Shown: one piece after another, positions 37,498 to 44,638 of the stretch
Layout of the letters: each line of letters starts with the position of its first letter
How positions within the stretch are numbered: the stretch's first letter is position 1
From: Lysobacter sp. K5869
Lineage (GTDB): Bacteria; Pseudomonadota; Gammaproteobacteria; Xanthomonadales; Xanthomonadaceae
Assembly: GCF_018847975.1 (NCBI RefSeq)
Contig: NZ_CP072597.1
Coordinates: forward strand, 5,123,001 to 5,187,000
DNA length: 64,000 bases
Direction of reading: 5' to 3'
The notes under the pieces: generated by a model
What the model saw: the letters and a program-made list of their open reading frames with translations, nothing else
Databases searched by the model: none
Told to the model about the DNA's origin: nothing
Made by a program: the position numbers and the translations under genes

Positions 37498-37876
37498 GAT
37501 CGATCCGCGCACCGCGCCCACCCCAGCCCCCTCGATCCGCGCCCGCGCCCCGCTTCCGAAACGCCGCCCGCGACGACCGTCCGTCGCGCGCCCGCGCGCG
37601 TTACGCAAAACGCGACCGCCAGCGGACAAGCGTGGCGGCGAGTTTGCCCATACTGCACGCGCGCGCTTCGCTTGCAGATTCGATACAGACGCAAGCCACA
37701 AGGTTTGTTAGTTTGCGCACGGCAACACACCCCGCCCGACGTCGCGAAGGGGCGCGACGTCCACGGCGGCCTCTCGCCCGTCGCGCCGGCCTTGGCCGCG
37801 GATGCGGGGCGCGCATGAGGCCTCATGCGACACCGGCCCCGACGTAGACCAGACACGAACGCGAGCGGACGCTGCG
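37498..37876. other. Intergenic region upstream of the wHTH-STAND gene
   Basis: About 380 bp without a supported gene. Between 37660 and 37730 the sequence is AT-richer (CTTGCAGATTCGATACAGACG ... AAGGTTTGTTAGTTTG, split here) and is the likeliest promoter region of the large gene. In-frame ATG at 37802 could extend the protein by 25 residues, but homology starts later. Confidence 0.4.
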
Positions 37877-40800
37877 ATGCCCCAACGCATCGAACGGATC
37901 AAGAACCTGGCCAGCGTGTCGCAGTTCCGCATCGGCGCGTCGCTGGTGCAGCCCGACCGTCTGGCGATCGTGCGCGAGGGCCAGTCCACGGCGCTGGAAC
38001 CGCGCATGATGGAAGTGCTGATCGCGCTGGCCGAACGCGCCGGCGAAGTGGTCAGCGCCGAGCAGTTGCTGATCGAGATCTGGCGCGGCACGTTCTACGG
38101 CGACAACCCGGTGCACAAGACCATCGCCCAGCTGCGCCGGCGTTTGGGCGATAGCAGCCGCGAACCGGAATACATCGAGACCATCCGCAAGCGCGGCTAT
38201 CGCTTGGTCGCGCCGGTGACCTTCCCCGACGACTACCGCAGCGGCCTGCCGCGCGCGGCGGCGTGGACCCAGGGCAGCCCGTACGTCGGCCTGCGTTCGT
38301 TCGACCAAGACCACGCCGGCGTGTTCTTCGGCCGCAGCCGCGCCACCGCCGAGTTGCTGGCGACGCTGCGCGAGCAGATCGACAACCAGCGCCGCTTCGT
38401 CCTGGTGTCCGGCGCCAGCGGCTGCGGCAAGACCTCGCTGCTGCGCGCCGGCGTGCTGCCGCTGCTGCGCCAGGACGGCGGTTTCGACGGGCTGCACGCG
38501 CTCGCCAGCGCCTACTTCGACCTCGGCGCCTGCCGCGGCGGCGACCTGCTCGCGCGGCTGGCGCAGTCGCTGTGCGCGTGGTCGCTGGACGGCCGGCCGG
38601 TGTTCCTGGACAGCGAAGCGCCGTGGCTCGAGCAACAACTGCGCGCCGCGCCCGAGGCGGTGCGCGCGCGCATCGACGACGCGTTCGCGCGCCGCACCGC
38701 GCCGCTGGCCGAGCGCGCGCATCTGCTGCTGGTGGTCGATCACGCCGAAGCCGCGGTCGCCGCGCCCGGCATCGGCGAGGCCGACCGCCGCGACTTCGGC
38801 GCCGCGCTCGACGCGCTGTGCGCGAGCGCGCGGGTCGCCGCCATCGCCATCACCCGCAGCGATTTCTATCCGGCGCTGGTGGAGAAAGTGCCGGGGCTGG
38901 CCGAACTCAAGGCCGGCGACGGCCACATCGATCTGCTGACCCCGCGCATCGGCGAGATCGGCCAGATCATCCGCGCGCCGGCGGCGCTGGCCGGATTGAG
39001 CTTCGAGGAAGACCCCGACAGCTCGCTGCGCCTGGACGACTTGCTGCGCGACGCCGCCGCCGAGCATCCCGATTCGCTGCCGCTGCTGCAGCACACCTTG
39101 CAGGCGCTGTACGAACGCCAGGGCGACGGCGGCCTGCTGCGGCTGGCGACCTACCGCGAACTCGGCGGCCTGGAGGGCGCGCTGGCGCACCGCGCCGAGC
39201 AAGTGTTCGGCGAACTGCCGGCGACGGCGCAGGCCAGTCTGGAACGGGTGCTGGCGGCGCTGATCGTGATCCGCCCCGACAGCGACGCGGTCACCGGCCG
39301 GCGGGTGCCGTGGTCGAGCCTGGACGACGCGGCCGCGCGCGAACTGGCCGAAGCCTTCGTGCGCGCGCGCCTGTTCGTCGGCGAACTCAGCGGCGGCGAA
39401 CCCGGTTTCGGCGTCGCCCACGAAGCGCTGCTGCGGCAATGGCCGCGCGCGCGCGAGTGGACGCGCGAGAACCGGCAACTGCTGCAAGCGCGCGAGCGCC
39501 TGCAACGCGCGGCGCGGCGCTGGGCCGCGGAAGGCCGGCGCAACGATCACTTGCTCAATCCCGGCCGGCCGCTGGCCGAAGCGCGCGAGGCCGCGCGCCG
39601 CCTGCCCGATCAGCTCGACGGCGACGACCGCGAATTCCTGCACGCCTGCGAACGCCAGCAGCGGCGCAAGCAATGGCTGCGCGCGGGCGCGATCGGCGCG
39701 CTGTGCGCGCTGGCCCTGGTCGCCACCGGCCTGGGCCTGCAGGCGTGGCAGGCGCGGCGCGAGGCCGAGCAGCGGCGCGATCAGGCGCAGAAGCTGGTCG
39801 CCTTCATGCTCGACGACTTGGCCGAACAGCTGCGCCCGCTCGGCAACCTCAAGCTGCTGCGCAGCATCGGCAATCAATCCTTGTCCTATCTGGAGCGCAT
39901 GCCGGAAACCGACATGCAGCCGCGCGAATTGGTCAGCCACGCGCGCGCGCTGCGCACGGTCGGCGAAGTGCTGCTGGACCAGGGCAAGTTCGACGACGCA
40001 CGGGCCGCGTTCGAGCGCGCCCAGGCCGCCTCGGCGCGCGCGCTCGAGCAAGAACCGCAATCGCTGGAAGCGCTGGCCGAGACCGGCACGACCGCTTACT
40101 GGCTGGGCTACCACGACTACAAGCAGAAGAAGTACGACACCACGCGCACCCACTGGCAGGCGTATCTGCGCGCCTCCGAACGTCTGGTCCAGCGCGCGCC
40201 GGGCGATCCGCGCTGGCGCCTGGAGCTGTCCTACGCGCTCAACAATCTCGGCACCTTGGCTTACAGCAGCCAGCGCCTGGACGAGGCCGGCGACCTGTTC
40301 GCGCGCTCGGTGGCGATCAAGCGGCAATTGCTCGCCGACAAGCCCGACGACAGTTCGCTGCGCTACGAACTGGTCGACAGCCTGTCGTGGCTGAGCAGCG
40401 CGCAGGACGCGCGCGGCTTGTTGGCCGAAGCCGCGCAAGGCTATGCCGCGCAAACCCGGATGCTGCGCGAACTGGTCGACAGCGAGCCCAACGCCGACGA
40501 ATGGCGGCGCAAGCTGGCGACCTCGCTGCTGCGCAGCTCGGTGTTGGCGCTGGACCGCGGCGAACTCGATCAGGCCGAGCGCGAGAGCGCCGAATCGGTG
40601 CGCATGCTGCGAAGCCTCGCCGAGCAGCAGCCCGACAACCAAACCTGGCAGCGCAACCTCGGCCACGCCTACGCGCACGCCGGCTGGGTCGCGGCGATGG
40701 CCGGTTCGCGCGAGCGCGCGCTCGAACGCCTGCGCGCGGCGCAGCGCACGCTGGCGCCGATCATGCAGGCCAGCGACCGGCCGCCGGAGTGGCGCTTGCT

Positions 40801-41197
40801 CGACGCGACGGTGCGGCTGCGATTGGTCCAGGCCGATCCGCTGGCCGCGGCCGAGGACGCCGACGCGGTCATCGCCGACCTGCAGAAATTGCAGGAAAGC
40901 GCGCCGACCGATCTGCCCAACCGCTCCAGCCTCGCGCGCGCGCTGGTCTGGCGCGGCGAGCGCTACGCCGCGGCCGGCGACGCGGCGCGCGCGCGCCAGG
41001 ATTTCGTCCGCGTCGATCAACTGCTGACCGCGTTCGCGCCCGACACCCGCGAACGCGTCGCGCTCGACGCCTGGACCCGCGCGCTGGTGCGCCTGGGCGC
41101 GCGCGCGCGCGCCGCGCGCCAGATCGCCTGGCTGCAACACGCCGGCTACCGCCATCCCGGTTTCGTAGCGCTTTACGAAACCGCTCCCCAGCCCTGA
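37877..41197 (+). CDS. wHTH-STAND ATPase-TM-TPR regulator (nSTAND1 type)
   Basis: An 1106-residue multidomain protein. Residues 14-113 form an OmpR/CadC-type winged helix (LEPRMMEVLIALAERAGEVV, HKTIAQLRRRLGD, ETIRKRGYRL). Residues 130-590 form a STAND-class NTPase with Walker A GASGCGKTS (179-187) and a Walker B-like LLLVVDHAEA (about 282-291). A single transmembrane helix lies at 600-622, followed by a TPR-like region (650-1100). This combines a CadC-like DNA-binding module with a ligand-gated oligomerising ATPase, on opposite sides of the membrane from the TPRs if the topology holds. The next gene begins 16 bp later. Confidence 0.85.
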   Translation: MPQRIERIKNLASVSQFRIGASLVQPDRLAIVREGQSTALEPRMMEVLIALAERAGEVVSAEQLLIEIWRGTFYGDNPVHKTIAQLRRRLGDSSREPEYIETIRKRGYRLVAPVTFPDDYRSGLPRAAAWTQGSPYVGLRSFDQDHAGVFFGRSRATAELLATLREQIDNQRRFVLVSGASGCGKTSLLRAGVLPLLRQDGGFDGLHALASAYFDLGACRGGDLLARLAQSLCAWSLDGRPVFLDSEAPWLEQQLRAAPEAVRARIDDAFARRTAPLAERAHLLLVVDHAEAAVAAPGIGEADRRDFGAALDALCASARVAAIAITRSDFYPALVEKVPGLAELKAGDGHIDLLTPRIGEIGQIIRAPAALAGLSFEEDPDSSLRLDDLLRDAAAEHPDSLPLLQHTLQALYERQGDGGLLRLATYRELGGLEGALAHRAEQVFGELPATAQASLERVLAALIVIRPDSDAVTGRRVPWSSLDDAAARELAEAFVRARLFVGELSGGEPGFGVAHEALLRQWPRAREWTRENRQLLQARERLQRAARRWAAEGRRNDHLLNPGRPLAEAREAARRLPDQLDGDDREFLHACERQQRRKQWLRAGAIGALCALALVATGLGLQAWQARREAEQRRDQAQKLVAFMLDDLAEQLRPLGNLKLLRSIGNQSLSYLERMPETDMQPRELVSHARALRTVGEVLLDQGKFDDARAAFERAQAASARALEQEPQSLEALAETGTTAYWLGYHDYKQKKYDTTRTHWQAYLRASERLVQRAPGDPRWRLELSYALNNLGTLAYSSQRLDEAGDLFARSVAIKRQLLADKPDDSSLRYELVDSLSWLSSAQDARGLLAEAAQGYAAQTRMLRELVDSEPNADEWRRKLATSLLRSSVLALDRGELDQAERESAESVRMLRSLAEQQPDNQTWQRNLGHAYAHAGWVAAMAGSRERALERLRAAQRTLAPIMQASDRPPEWRLLDATVRLRLVQADPLAAAEDADAVIADLQKLQESAPTDLPNRSSLARALVWRGERYAAAGDAARARQDFVRVDQLLTAFAPDTRERVALDAWTRALVRLGARARAARQIAWLQHAGYRHPGFVALYETAPQP

Positions 41198-41213: not shown

Positions 41214-41726
41214 ATGCCCAAGAAAGAATCCGCCAAGCCGGCGACCGCGTCCGACAAAAGGAAGAAGCCCACGCCGTGGGACGGCCAATACCCGGTCCAC
41301 CCGATCGAGCTGACCGTCGCCCACGTCGGTTTCGGCGGCAACGCCGGCAAGGGCCATTACTTCTACAGCTTCGCCCCGGACGTGGTGACCTTCCAGCAGC
41401 CCGGCGGGCTGTGGATCGAATACGTGTTCGAGATCCAGGTGCCGGAGCGCTTCGAGATCATCAACGTGCTGACCTCCGACGCCAAGGGCCAGATCGAGCC
41501 GCCGGTGTTCGATCCGCCGCAGGAGAAGGACGTCTACCGCCGCCGCGTGTACCTGTTCAACCACAACACCGAATCGACGCTGATCTTCTTCACCGTGCTG
41601 GTGCGCGACAAGTTCAGCAACTACAACGACGTGCAGGTGATTTCCTGCGATCCGCAGGTCGGCAACGATCCGCAGATCGTGCCGGGCACGGGCAAGGGCG
41701 GCGGCAAGAAGGGCAAGAAGGGCTGA
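41214..41726 (+). CDS. Hypothetical beta-rich protein with Lys-rich ends
   Basis: A 170-residue soluble protein with Lys-rich N-terminal (MPKKESAKPATASDKRKK) and C-terminal (GKGGGKKGKKG) tails. The core is full of alternating hydrophobic strands (IELTVAHVGFGG, LWIEYVFEIQVPERFEII, STLIFFTVLVRDKF), suggesting a beta-sandwich. No signal peptide. The 16-bp gap to the STAND gene implies cotranscription, so it may be a ligand, partner or output of that protein. Family not recognised. Confidence 0.7.
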   Translation: MPKKESAKPATASDKRKKPTPWDGQYPVHPIELTVAHVGFGGNAGKGHYFYSFAPDVVTFQQPGGLWIEYVFEIQVPERFEIINVLTSDAKGQIEPPVFDPPQEKDVYRRRVYLFNHNTESTLIFFTVLVRDKFSNYNDVQVISCDPQVGNDPQIVPGTGKGGGKKGKKG

Positions 41727-41901: not shown

Positions 41902-42285
41902 TCAAGTGATCTCGCAGAAATTCGCGTAATGATCCGGCGTGTAGTAGCGCATCGCGATCGTTTTCTTGGTCCCGTCGTTGACCAGATACACCAGCCGGCG
42001 CAGCCCGGCGTCGCCGTTGTCCTTGCGGATCTTGCCTTCCCAATACACCTGCCCGCGGCCGGCATTGGGCAGCTTGCCTTCGTTGTTGGAGAAGATCTGC
42101 ACGTCCATGCCGGCGCGGCCGCATTCGGCCACCGGGTCGACCGCGGTGATGCAGAACGACATGGTGCGCATGGCTTCGCGGATGTCCGGCGGCAAGCTGG
42201 TGCAGGCGCGCGGCTTGGCCGCGGCCGGGGCGGCGGCGAGCAGGCACAGACTCAGCGCCAGGGCGGCGCGGGTGAACGGATTCAT
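41902..42285 (-). CDS. Secreted barnase-like ribonuclease, catalytic residues present
   Basis: The 127-residue precursor has a signal peptide (1-23). Its C-terminal half aligns by eye with barnase: IFSNNEGKLPNAGRG against IFSNREGKLPGKSGR, VYWEGKI against TWREADI, RLVYLVND against RILYSSDW, and TPDHYANF against TTDHYQTF. The residues equivalent to barnase Glu73, Arg87 and His102 are Glu83, Arg97 and His119, so RNA cleavage is likely. Arg59 of barnase is Asn68. Four mature Cys (28, 45, 55, 124) suggest two disulfides. No barstar-like inhibitor is adjacent. GAGGAG lies 8 bp before the ATG. Confidence 0.85.
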   Translation of the reverse strand: MNPFTRAALALSLCLLAAAPAAAKPRACTSLPPDIREAMRTMSFCITAVDPVAECGRAGMDVQIFSNNEGKLPNAGRGQVYWEGKIRKDNGDAGLRRLVYLVNDGTKKTIAMRYYTPDHYANFCEIT

Positions 42286-42328
42286 GGCGATGCTCCTCGA
42301 TAGGGACGGATCGGCGATGCGGGACAAC

Positions 42329-42358
42329 GCGGCGGCGGCGCCCCCGCGCCGCCGCCGC
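42329..42358. promoter_or_regulatory. 12-bp perfect hairpin between the two RNase-like genes
   Basis: GCGGCGGCGGCG - CCCCCG - CGCCGCCGCCGC lies in the 83-bp gap between the paralogous genes. Without a T-run it is more likely an RNA-processing or attenuation site than a full terminator. Confidence 0.5.
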
Positions 42359-42368
42359 ATCCGGGCCC

Positions 42369-42752
42369 TTAGGTGCCCGCGACCTGACAGAAGCTCTTGA
42401 AGTTGTCCTGGGTGAAATAGCGCTTGGCGATCGGCTTGCCCTTGGCGCCGACGGCGACGTTGTAGACCAGCCCCTGCGGCGAACCCAGCAGCGCCGGCGA
42501 GGCGCGCCAGTACTGGGCGCCGATCCCGCCCAGCGGCGGCAGCAGGCCCTGGGCGTTGTCGTAGACGCGGGCGTTGAGGCGGAACTTGAGGCAGCCCTTG
42601 ACCGGGTCGGCGCCGCGCACGCAGATGTCGAAGTCGCGGACCATCGCGGCCGGCGGCGGGGTCTTGCAGGCCGGCGGCTCGGCGGCCAGGGCCGGCGCGG
42701 CGGCGGCGAGCAGGACGGCCGACAGCGACCACTTCACAAGTTTGGCGTTCAT
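42369..42752 (-). CDS. Degenerate barnase-like paralogue (catalytic residues replaced)
   Basis: A 127-residue precursor with a signal peptide (1-24) and the same length, four-Cys pattern (29, 44, 54, 122), Tyr-Trp position (81-82) and ending (RYFTQDNFKSFC) as the downstream RNase. At the three catalytic positions it has Arg83, Gln93/Gly94 and Asn117 instead of Glu, Arg and His. It is therefore probably folded, secreted and catalytically inactive. It lies 83 bp upstream of the intact gene on the same strand. Possible roles are a binding partner, decoy or regulator of the active paralogue; none is shown. Confidence 0.75.
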   Translation of the reverse strand: MNAKLVKWSLSAVLLAAAAPALAAEPPACKTPPPAAMVRDFDICVRGADPVKGCLKFRLNARVYDNAQGLLPPLGGIGAQYWRASPALLGSPQGLVYNVAVGAKGKPIAKRYFTQDNFKSFCQVAGT

Positions 42753-43207
42753 GAGTTCTCTCTCTCCGGAAGAAGGTGGGCCCGCGCCGGCCCGGCCCGG
42801 AGGCCGCCTGCGCGTGGCTGCGGCTGAAACCGCGCCGCCACCTTGGGCGCGCCGCCGCGCCCGCGCCTTCCGGCAACCTTACGGTCGCGGCCGGAGGCGG
42901 CGGCGCCGGTGAGGCTCGGTGGGGACGCCGTAGACCGGCGGTGAGCGGGCCGCGAACCACGGTGAGGCAGGCGCCCGGACCCGCCCTCCTGCGCCGGCGG
43001 ACACCGTCCCAGCGCCCACACGCACGCGCCAACCCATTGAAAGAAAAGCGCTTCGCGCTCCGTAAGGTTGCCGTAAGGCGCGAAAGCGGGCGCCGCGCGC
43101 AGCCTGCGCGGCAACGGATCGCCGCCCGCCGCGTTCCGCCGCCGACGCGCCGCCAGGCGCGCGGCCACCGGCGCGCACGCCGCCCCGCGGCGAGGCAGGA
43201 GCGCGAC
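42753..43207. other. Divergent intergenic region with shared 23-nt element
   Basis: CCGTAAGGTTGCCG(G/T)AAGGCGCG occurs on the minus strand at 42884-42862 (110 bp before the degenerate RNase start) and on the plus strand at 43060-43082 (126 bp before the 476-residue protein start), 22 of 23 identical. Each copy has the same orientation relative to its own gene, as expected of a shared operator or leader element. Confidence 0.75.
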
Positions 43208-44638
43208 ATGACCGCATACGAGCCCCCCTATTCCCATGTCGGCGAAGCGTCGGCGCCGACGCTGGAGTCGCCGGACGAAGAGGTCGGGCCCTTGTCGCAG
43301 TTCCGCCACGGCGCCCAGGACCGGCGCCTGCTGGAGCTCGCCCGGCTCGACGCCGGGCTGGCCGCCAACGCCGACTTCGACGACAAGCCCTGGGGGCTGC
43401 TGTACCGCGCCCTGGTCGATTCGATCGGGCTGTCGCCGGACGACTTCCAGCTCTCCTACCCCGCCACGCCCTGGGACTGGCCCTGCCCGCAGGAAGGTTT
43501 CATCCACGCCGCCCAGTACGACTTCTGCGCCACGGCGCCGCAGTGGAGCGCGATCGGCGCCTACGTCTCCAGCGGCGACACCGTGCACCAGGGCTATCAG
43601 CAGTTCCTCAACGTCGCCCTGGCCCAGACCGACTACCGCACCCTGCGCCAGCACCTCAACGACGCCGACGACGCGCTGACCACGGCCACCAACCAGTACA
43701 CCCTGGCCACCACCTCGGCCGCCTCGGCCTACGCCGCCCAGGTCGAGGACAACCAGCCCAGCTTCACCCACTGGCTCGGCGGCGCGCGCGGGCGCAGCTA
43801 CCAAGGCCGCATCGTCGCCGCGCAGGTGGCGATGAATCAGGCCCAGGCGCATTACGCCGCGCTGGTCGCGCAGTGCCAGTCGCCGGAACTCGGCCACGCC
43901 CAGCGCCGCTGCGGCGACGAGCGTTTCCACGTGCGCCTGTCCGATCTCAACCTGATCCGCATGCCGAAGGTGCCGGACTGGCGCTTGGCCCAGAGCAGCG
44001 ACGACTGGGTCGCGCAGGTCGAAGCCGGACGCGGCCCGGCCGGGGTCACGCTCGGTTTCAGCAACCGCGAGGCGCCTTACGACTTCGCCCAGACCTGGGC
44101 CGGCCGCCGCGGCCGCATCCGCCAGTTGTTCTGGCAGGCGCGCATCAACGGCCGCTGGGAGCGCATCGACGAATTCGAGTTCGACAACAAGCTGGAGCTG
44201 TCGCTGGACTTCCAGGCGGTGGACACCATCGCGATCCGTCCGGGCGAATGGTTCGACGGCGAGTTCGCGCGCTCGATGATCGACGGACCGTTCATGCCCG
44301 GCTACAGCGCCTTCGGCGGCGACACCGTGGAAACCCGCGGCCAGCCGGTGTTCGGCGAGCGCGGCTTCTTCGGGTTGGTGAAGAGCGGTTTGTGCGTGGG
44401 CTACCGGCCCTCGTTCGCGATCCGCACCAACACCTCGACCTTCCGCCGCTTCGCCGATCCGTTCAAGGCCGCCACCGCGCTGCGGATCGGGCCGTTCGTG
44501 TTCGAAGCCGACGGCGGCAGCGTCGCGGCCGGCTGGAAGGCCGACGCGGCGACCCAAACCTTCACCGGCGCCAGCACCTCGCGCAGCCCGCTGATCCTCG
44601 GCGCGACCGTGGCGGAGTTGCCGAACGCCGGCGGCTGA
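43208..44638 (+). CDS. Hypothetical 476-residue protein
   Basis: A 476-residue protein with no signal peptide or transmembrane segment. The N-terminal third includes WDWPCPQEGFIHAAQYDFC. A helical, Ala/Gln-rich segment at about 135-230 is likely coiled-coil. The C-terminal half is beta-rich (LFWQARINGRWERIDEFEFD, AIRPGEWFDGEF, GFFGLVKSGLCVGYRP). GGCAGGAG is 6 bp before the ATG. Family and function are not recognised. The promoter shares an element with the divergent RNase-like gene, so a common regulon is inferred. Confidence 0.75.
   Translation: MTAYEPPYSHVGEASAPTLESPDEEVGPLSQFRHGAQDRRLLELARLDAGLAANADFDDKPWGLLYRALVDSIGLSPDDFQLSYPATPWDWPCPQEGFIHAAQYDFCATAPQWSAIGAYVSSGDTVHQGYQQFLNVALAQTDYRTLRQHLNDADDALTTATNQYTLATTSAASAYAAQVEDNQPSFTHWLGGARGRSYQGRIVAAQVAMNQAQAHYAALVAQCQSPELGHAQRRCGDERFHVRLSDLNLIRMPKVPDWRLAQSSDDWVAQVEAGRGPAGVTLGFSNREAPYDFAQTWAGRRGRIRQLFWQARINGRWERIDEFEFDNKLELSLDFQAVDTIAIRPGEWFDGEFARSMIDGPFMPGYSAFGGDTVETRGQPVFGERGFFGLVKSGLCVGYRPSFAIRTNTSTFRRFADPFKAATALRIGPFVFEADGGSVAAGWKADAATQTFTGASTSRSPLILGATVAELPNAGG

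Follow-up and report, generated by a model that had tools for sequence, protein, structure and literature searches.

A retained, probably non-catalytic relative of RNase Sa beside an intact RNase gene in Lysobacter

Within a stretch of 64,000 nucleotides from the genome of Lysobacter sp. K5869 (NZ_CP072597.1, positions 5,123,001 to 5,187,000; hereafter the window) we found two neighbouring minus-strand genes for small proteins of common ancestry, one encoding an apparently intact RNase (B) and the other a pseudo-RNase (A).

42369..42752, minus strand: gene A, exported-looking pseudo-RNase of 127 amino acids (aa), promoter-proximal and transcribed first (open reading frame, BLASTP, alignments, model)
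42326..42361, minus strand: GC-rich hairpin between A and B with a 16-bp stem (predicted fold)
41902..42285, minus strand: gene B, apparently exported 127-aa member of the RNase Sa/barnase family (PF00545 match, alignments, model)

An earlier sequence-only reading had described the pair as tandem exported barnase-like RNases, one intact and one stripped of its catalytic residues. This observation proved real and slightly misread in detail, and we regard it as partly confirmed. The two proteins share 33% identity across 101 columns (BLASTP, E 6e-15), and the four matching Cys noted earlier were borne out by colinear positions in the alignments (29/44/54/122 in A, 28/45/55/124 in B). The equal length of 127 codons holds for these two minus-strand frames and not as a family trait, as relatives of A span 127-131 aa and those of B 126-131 aa. 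Both N-termini resemble Sec signal peptides when judged by eye, and to that extent the claim of export stands.

B matched PF00545 at 37.5 bits (cut-off 24) in a Pfam profile search, and its best relative by sequence in the Protein Data Bank (PDB) was the ribonuclease of 1py3. As had been claimed, B retains Glu83, Arg97 and His119, which are in register with the catalytic residues of RNase Sa2 and binase and invariant in 15/15 relatives of B. The model of B has the fold of RNase Sa. With the guanyl-specific RNases Sa, Sa2 and Sa3 of Streptomyces (PF00545), B has the fold and the catalytic Glu/Arg/His in common; it differs in having two extra Cys and an Asn at the place of barnase Arg59, and the base-binding Glu (Glu69 in B) is missing from some relatives of B, for example P0017 and P0024. 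RNase Sa is secreted and carries Cys near both of its ends, a likeness to B. With barnase and binase, the enzymes paired with barstar, B is colinear in its C-terminal half, and Glu73, Arg87 and His102 of barnase are all matched. By its sequence, B is an ordinary RNase that looks exported. With four Cys it may well fold only once it has left the cytoplasm, and the lack of a dedicated inhibitor at the locus would then be accounted for.

In A, the alignments place Arg83 at the position of the catalytic Glu and Asn117 at that of the catalytic His, in agreement with the earlier assignment. Gln93, previously taken for the counterpart of Arg97, is not, because A has a 3-residue deletion at this segment, where Gly94 directly precedes an LVY shared with B. 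Relative to the RNase Sa family, A is therefore without all three catalytic residues. We aligned 18 rows of A (database and genome copies, possibly not all from different species) with 15 rows of the intact type and two rows of the g45 homologues. The catalytic Glu and His were missing in 18/18 A rows: position 83 was Arg in all 18 and Glu in all 15 intact-type rows, Gln93 was fixed in every A row, and position 117 was occupied by Asn (6), Ser (7) or Gln (5). Net charge was +5 to +8 in A (18 rows), compared with +1 to +4 in Lysobacter B (10 rows), +3 to +4 in g7 and g38 homologues (5 rows) and +2 in g45 homologues (2 rows).

The profile search proposed by the earlier reading thus placed B in PF00545 and left A without any family: A matched none in Pfam at E <= 1, none in NCBIfam or PHROGs, and no chain in the PDB. 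The family place of A rests on its homology to B together with its model, which has the RNase Sa fold, so that both common ancestry and fold were found for A. Structure models of the single proteins gave the RNase Sa fold for both, closer to RNase Sa than to barnase by VIA-align Z; the likeness to barnase survives in that barnase provided the first Foldseek rows, ranked by E-value, for the model of B.

A partial loss of catalytic residues was observed elsewhere as well. L076, L077 and L078, from a neighbouring genus, carry Ala for the catalytic Glu and Arg for the preceding Trp and retain the His; this exchange of Glu for Ala with the His kept is the state of the g45 homologues (3 genomes; P0030, P0031), and also of P0032 and P0034, which resemble them. 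Set beside A, these sequences suggest a second, partial loss in the neighbouring genus, so that the catalytic base has probably been lost twice in the RNase Sa family here.

The most conserved part of A surrounds the former active site. Residues 59-97 are invariant at 28/39 positions against 15/64 in the remaining mature protein (p 2e-6), a contrast absent from the 10 rows of Lysobacter B (21/41 against 25/63). A is under purifying selection: when observed base changes were placed at random with base composition kept, amino-acid changes were fewer than expected at p<0.05 in 7 of 8 A pairs, and all six B pairs tested also showed fewer than expected. The ratio of nonsynonymous to synonymous substitution rates (dN/dS, Nei-Gojobori) for A ranged from 0.16 to 1.23 and exceeded 1 in several distant pairs; it was set aside for the placement test because third positions in A are 95% G+C and hide synonymous change. 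Homology, models and substitution test together support the earlier claim of an intact RNase adjoining a retained pseudo-RNase.

The genes around the pair, by which the locus can be followed through the genus, are the following.

37802..41197, plus strand: candidate regulator with a Trans_reg_C winged helix, an nSTAND1 NTPase, a hydrophobic segment at about 628-646 and TPR repeats (hereafter STAND)
41214..41726, plus strand: conserved 170-aa protein of no clear family, convergent with B
42864..42884, minus strand: direct-repeat box CCGTAAGG-TTG-CCGGAAGG-CG oriented towards A and some 110 bp upstream of its start codon, a likely operator
43060..43080, plus strand: second copy of the box, oriented towards the divergent gene
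43208..44638, plus strand: divergent gene (43208) for a 476-aa protein of no clear family, probably of the same regulon

A survey of 20 genomes of the genus, one of the checks suggested earlier, found the pair conserved in only part of it. A was present in 10 genomes and B in 10: both occurred in 7 (adjacent, on the same strand and with A first), A alone in 3 (G003, G004, G011), B alone in 3 (G007, G008, G016) and neither in 7. There were 16 syntenic loci including that of G117, a genome of another genus, and the RNase slot held A and B in 7, A only in 3, B only in 4 (one broken) and neither in 2. The frame of A was open in 10/10 A-bearing genomes of the genus. The B of G007 is broken by a stop, for which an assembly error is possible since the genome is a draft of 180 contigs. 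In the other 12 A- or B-bearing genomes the arrangement is that of the window, with the copies flanked by homologues of STAND and 41214 on one side and of 43208 on the other. G117 has B alone in the same arrangement, and its B equals P0026 of Agrilutibacter solisilvae. In G001 and G002 the locus persists but lacks the RNase slot, neither A nor B being matched there at E <= 0.01, and the remaining five genomes without A and B also lack a 43208 match at E <= 0.001. No remnant of B was found in the A-only spacers (best E 0.12).

A appears restricted to Lysobacter in the searches made. A protein search with A returned 10 proteins including A itself, both named ones being from Lysobacter, and a scan of genome contigs gave 4 A loci, all from Lysobacter. 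A mixed-alignment protein search, in which the 7,993 candidates sharing most words were scored, added 10 proteins, none of A type. Among 395 genomes of the family, a mixed-profile search matched 35, namely 13 of the genus and 22 others. Of these 22, 12 were strong (8 g7, 1 g38, 3 g45) and 10 weak, and no A-like gene was seen among the 12/12 strong and 5/10 weak matches inspected (the latter, L080-L084, of canonical type). A mobile origin of A was likewise rejected, with no match in 50,697 phage or 72,556 plasmid records.

With G117 as root, the tree of the flanking STAND and 43208 proteins shows an A-bearing clade (99/97), in which A-only and A+B genomes are sisters, and a group of B-only and empty genomes (95/95) as the sister of that clade. 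The simplest history that this suggests is that B is ancestral, that A was gained once, and that B was lost both from the A-only clade and from G001/G002. A branch of 86/98 support, which is not decisive, separates A, Lysobacter B and the B of G117 from the homologues of g7 and g45. This is compatible with a local copy, an older paralogue or an import being less likely origins. Most likely, A would be a copy of the locus's own B that came to lie, in a single Lysobacter lineage, between the promoter region and B. It would then have lost the catalytic Glu, Arg and His during a phase of rapid change, and later have been fixed with a new conserved surface at the place of the old active site.

The 21-bp box CCGTAAGG-TTG-CCGKAAGG-CG occurs twice in the window against 0.01 copies expected from shuffles, and no further copy was found in the 5.97-Mb genome at <= 2 mismatches. 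It is present in 15/20 genomes of the genus, exactly those with gene 43208 at this locus, while the reversed control gave 0/20; G004 and G019 each have one extra box elsewhere with 2 mismatches. All 10 A-bearing genomes have the outward-facing pair and G001 and G002 retain only the box facing 43208. In G007 and G008 no box facing B was found at 3 mismatches, which counts against a box for every RNase gene; the box facing B in G016 has 3 mismatches, and G117 has both copies with 1-2 mismatches to a looser pattern. From their near confinement to this locus across the genus, the paired boxes are likely a dedicated operator, which probably drives A and the divergent gene 43208. A, and B behind it, would thereby be switched on together with 43208-44638. 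The earlier word operon for A and B was not established: their 83-bp spacer contains the strong GC hairpin, and B has its own GAGGAG-like ribosome-binding site (by eye). Stable predicted folds with GC stems occur in 7/7 A-B spacers (counted without a shuffle control), so that A and B need not be produced in equal amounts.

We favour, with a probability of roughly 0.55, the view that A is a neofunctionalised, exported, non-catalytic protein of RNase Sa fold, which arose from a copied B, has a binding role for which B is not needed, and is switched on with 43208. The homology, residue losses, fold model, retention without B, selection and order of events on which this view draws were computed. 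That the inactive A alone remains in some related species suggests a job of its own, and we think it more probable that A is kept as an independent protein than that it is dedicated to regulating B. A would act as a secreted or periplasmic binding protein; given its raised positive charge, a polyanion, for instance RNA or an acidic protein, would be a fitting ligand.

Several points weigh against this view. A stands beside B in 7/10 A-bearing genomes, as a partner would, and where B is missing the canonical barnase found in 20/20 genomes could take its place as partner of A. The expression, export and binding of A are what we infer, as are the disulphide logic and the link between regulator and box. 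A profile built from relatives of A retrieved no RNase from the PDB and A alone has no family match, so that the fold rests partly on B-like alignment rows. The conserved segment 59-97 was picked after the alignment had been viewed. In the placement test 2/3 A-only pairs reached p<0.05, the third (G004-G011) having p 0.08, and the A pairs tested were 8 of 45 possible and share genomes. As for history, the root of the flank tree depends on a single long outgroup branch, and support for the A-bearing clade was lower, at 81/81, in a smaller tree built from STAND only, from which G001 and G002 were absent and in which G117 was partial. Branching of A inside or outside Lysobacter B was undecided in the approximately unbiased (AU) test (p 0.25 and 0.37; 43 rows, with 5 canonical rows and L079 left out), and the stem branch of A, at 1.93 changes per column, is of a length that the tree program warned can be misplaced.

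The earlier reading proposed for the pseudo-RNase a function such as binding, targeting or regulating the active enzyme, which would make A a dedicated partner of B, be it an inhibitor, a helper in folding or export, or a targeting subunit. The constant order of the adjacent genes and the box before A, which makes a shared promoter likely, speak for such a pseudo-enzyme regulating its active sister. The reading is weakened by the A-only genomes, which are 3 of the 10 bearing A, and by the occurrence of B without A in 3/20 genomes and in G117. Nor does A evolve faster relative to the flanks where B is missing (1.1-2.1 in A-only pairs, 0.8-2.4 in A+B sister pairs), and A and B distances showed no correlation once the flanks were accounted for (partial r 0.10 and Mantel p 0.19, from just 7 genomes and so of low power). 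These rate and distance comparisons are blind to a partnership of A with the canonical barnase. On balance we consider a dedicated partner possible, though clearly less probable than an independent binding protein.

It is improbable that A is an enzyme with a new activity, in which the old cleft would hold a different active site made up of Arg83, Gln93, Asp116 and the invariant Tyr/Trp. The old active-site region is indeed A's most conserved part, with residues fixed in 18/18 rows, but a conserved binding surface would appear identical, and family and structure searches pointed to no other enzyme.

The earlier statement that no barstar is visible is correct for the A/B locus and not for the genome. 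A genome search at E <= 1 found no barstar next to A and B, at 5,165 kb, and a sole match at 777 kb, where it adjoins the gene of a different RNase:

G000:C1:776670-777355 (L005): canonical barnase gene, then barstar

An adjacent pair of this kind is present in 20/20 genomes of the genus, which would give a decoy for barstar-like inhibitors of the own cell or of competitors something to act on. Barstars are cytosolic, whereas A looks exported. Moreover, A is without counterparts of barnase Arg59, Arg87 and His102 in the alignments, residues described as contacting barstar in the text cited (PMC4207830), and with these missing we judged the decoy very unlikely. Equally unlikely is a decaying duplicate without function, with which the loss of all three catalytic residues and a period of relaxed constraint along the long stem would agree, as the substitution test and the open frames disfavour a pseudogene and A has family-specific invariant residues and a box before it in 10/10 A-bearing genomes.

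The closest parallel to A, by analogy of kind, is found in the RALPH effectors of powdery mildew (for example CSEP0064/BEC1054), described in the cited text as small secreted proteins with an RNase-like fold and no catalytic triad, one of which binds RNA weakly (PMC6464244). A shares with them the RNase-like fold and the lost triad, its export being judged by eye. In contrast, these effectors are fungal, of T1 type and form large families, while A is bacterial and single-copy. A more speculative extension, which we hold to be doubtful, is that A is a bacterial counterpart, with an active site rebuilt as a basic binding surface, which would act on prey or host without cutting RNA and displace its catalytic parent from the regulated slot in some species. 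If true, the RNase Sa scaffold would independently have made a non-catalytic effector in bacteria, to which a neighbouring genus would add the second loss, a partial one from Glu to Ala. Among fungi, secreted pseudo-RNases are already known as a large group of effectors. Among the papers listed in our searches of an open-access library there was no report of a conserved dead RNase Sa-fold protein outliving its active sister in a bacterium, and none on a Lysobacter barnase, a barnase pseudo-RNase or extracellular nucleases of L. enzymogenes. The series of B, A+B, A and neither at one locus of one genus offers a ready experiment on the change from enzyme to binding protein, and the nearly locus-specific box a small, testable regulon.

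The domains of the protein of 37802-41197 suggest a membrane-anchored regulator in which a STAND NTPase adjoins a DNA-binding part. Direct repeats of 8 bp with a period of 11 bp are typical of winged helices of the OmpR/PhoB type, and this nearby protein may plausibly act through the boxes. Searches of Pfam, PHROGs and the PDB returned nothing significant for the 43208 family (about 460-480 aa). The three B-only genomes of the genus hold a second copy of this family (about 50% identity), each copy being preceded by a box. Beside the locus in these genomes we also observed vWA-like (not in the L059 stretch), PP2C-type phosphatase-like and kinase-like genes, which recall the TerY-P triad.

L058:4600-5985 (plus), L059:7187-8572 (minus), L060:7310-9169 (minus): second copies of the 43208 family
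L058:10558-13448 (minus), L059:390-2583 (plus), L060:34-2924 (plus): vWA/phosphatase/kinase-like genes
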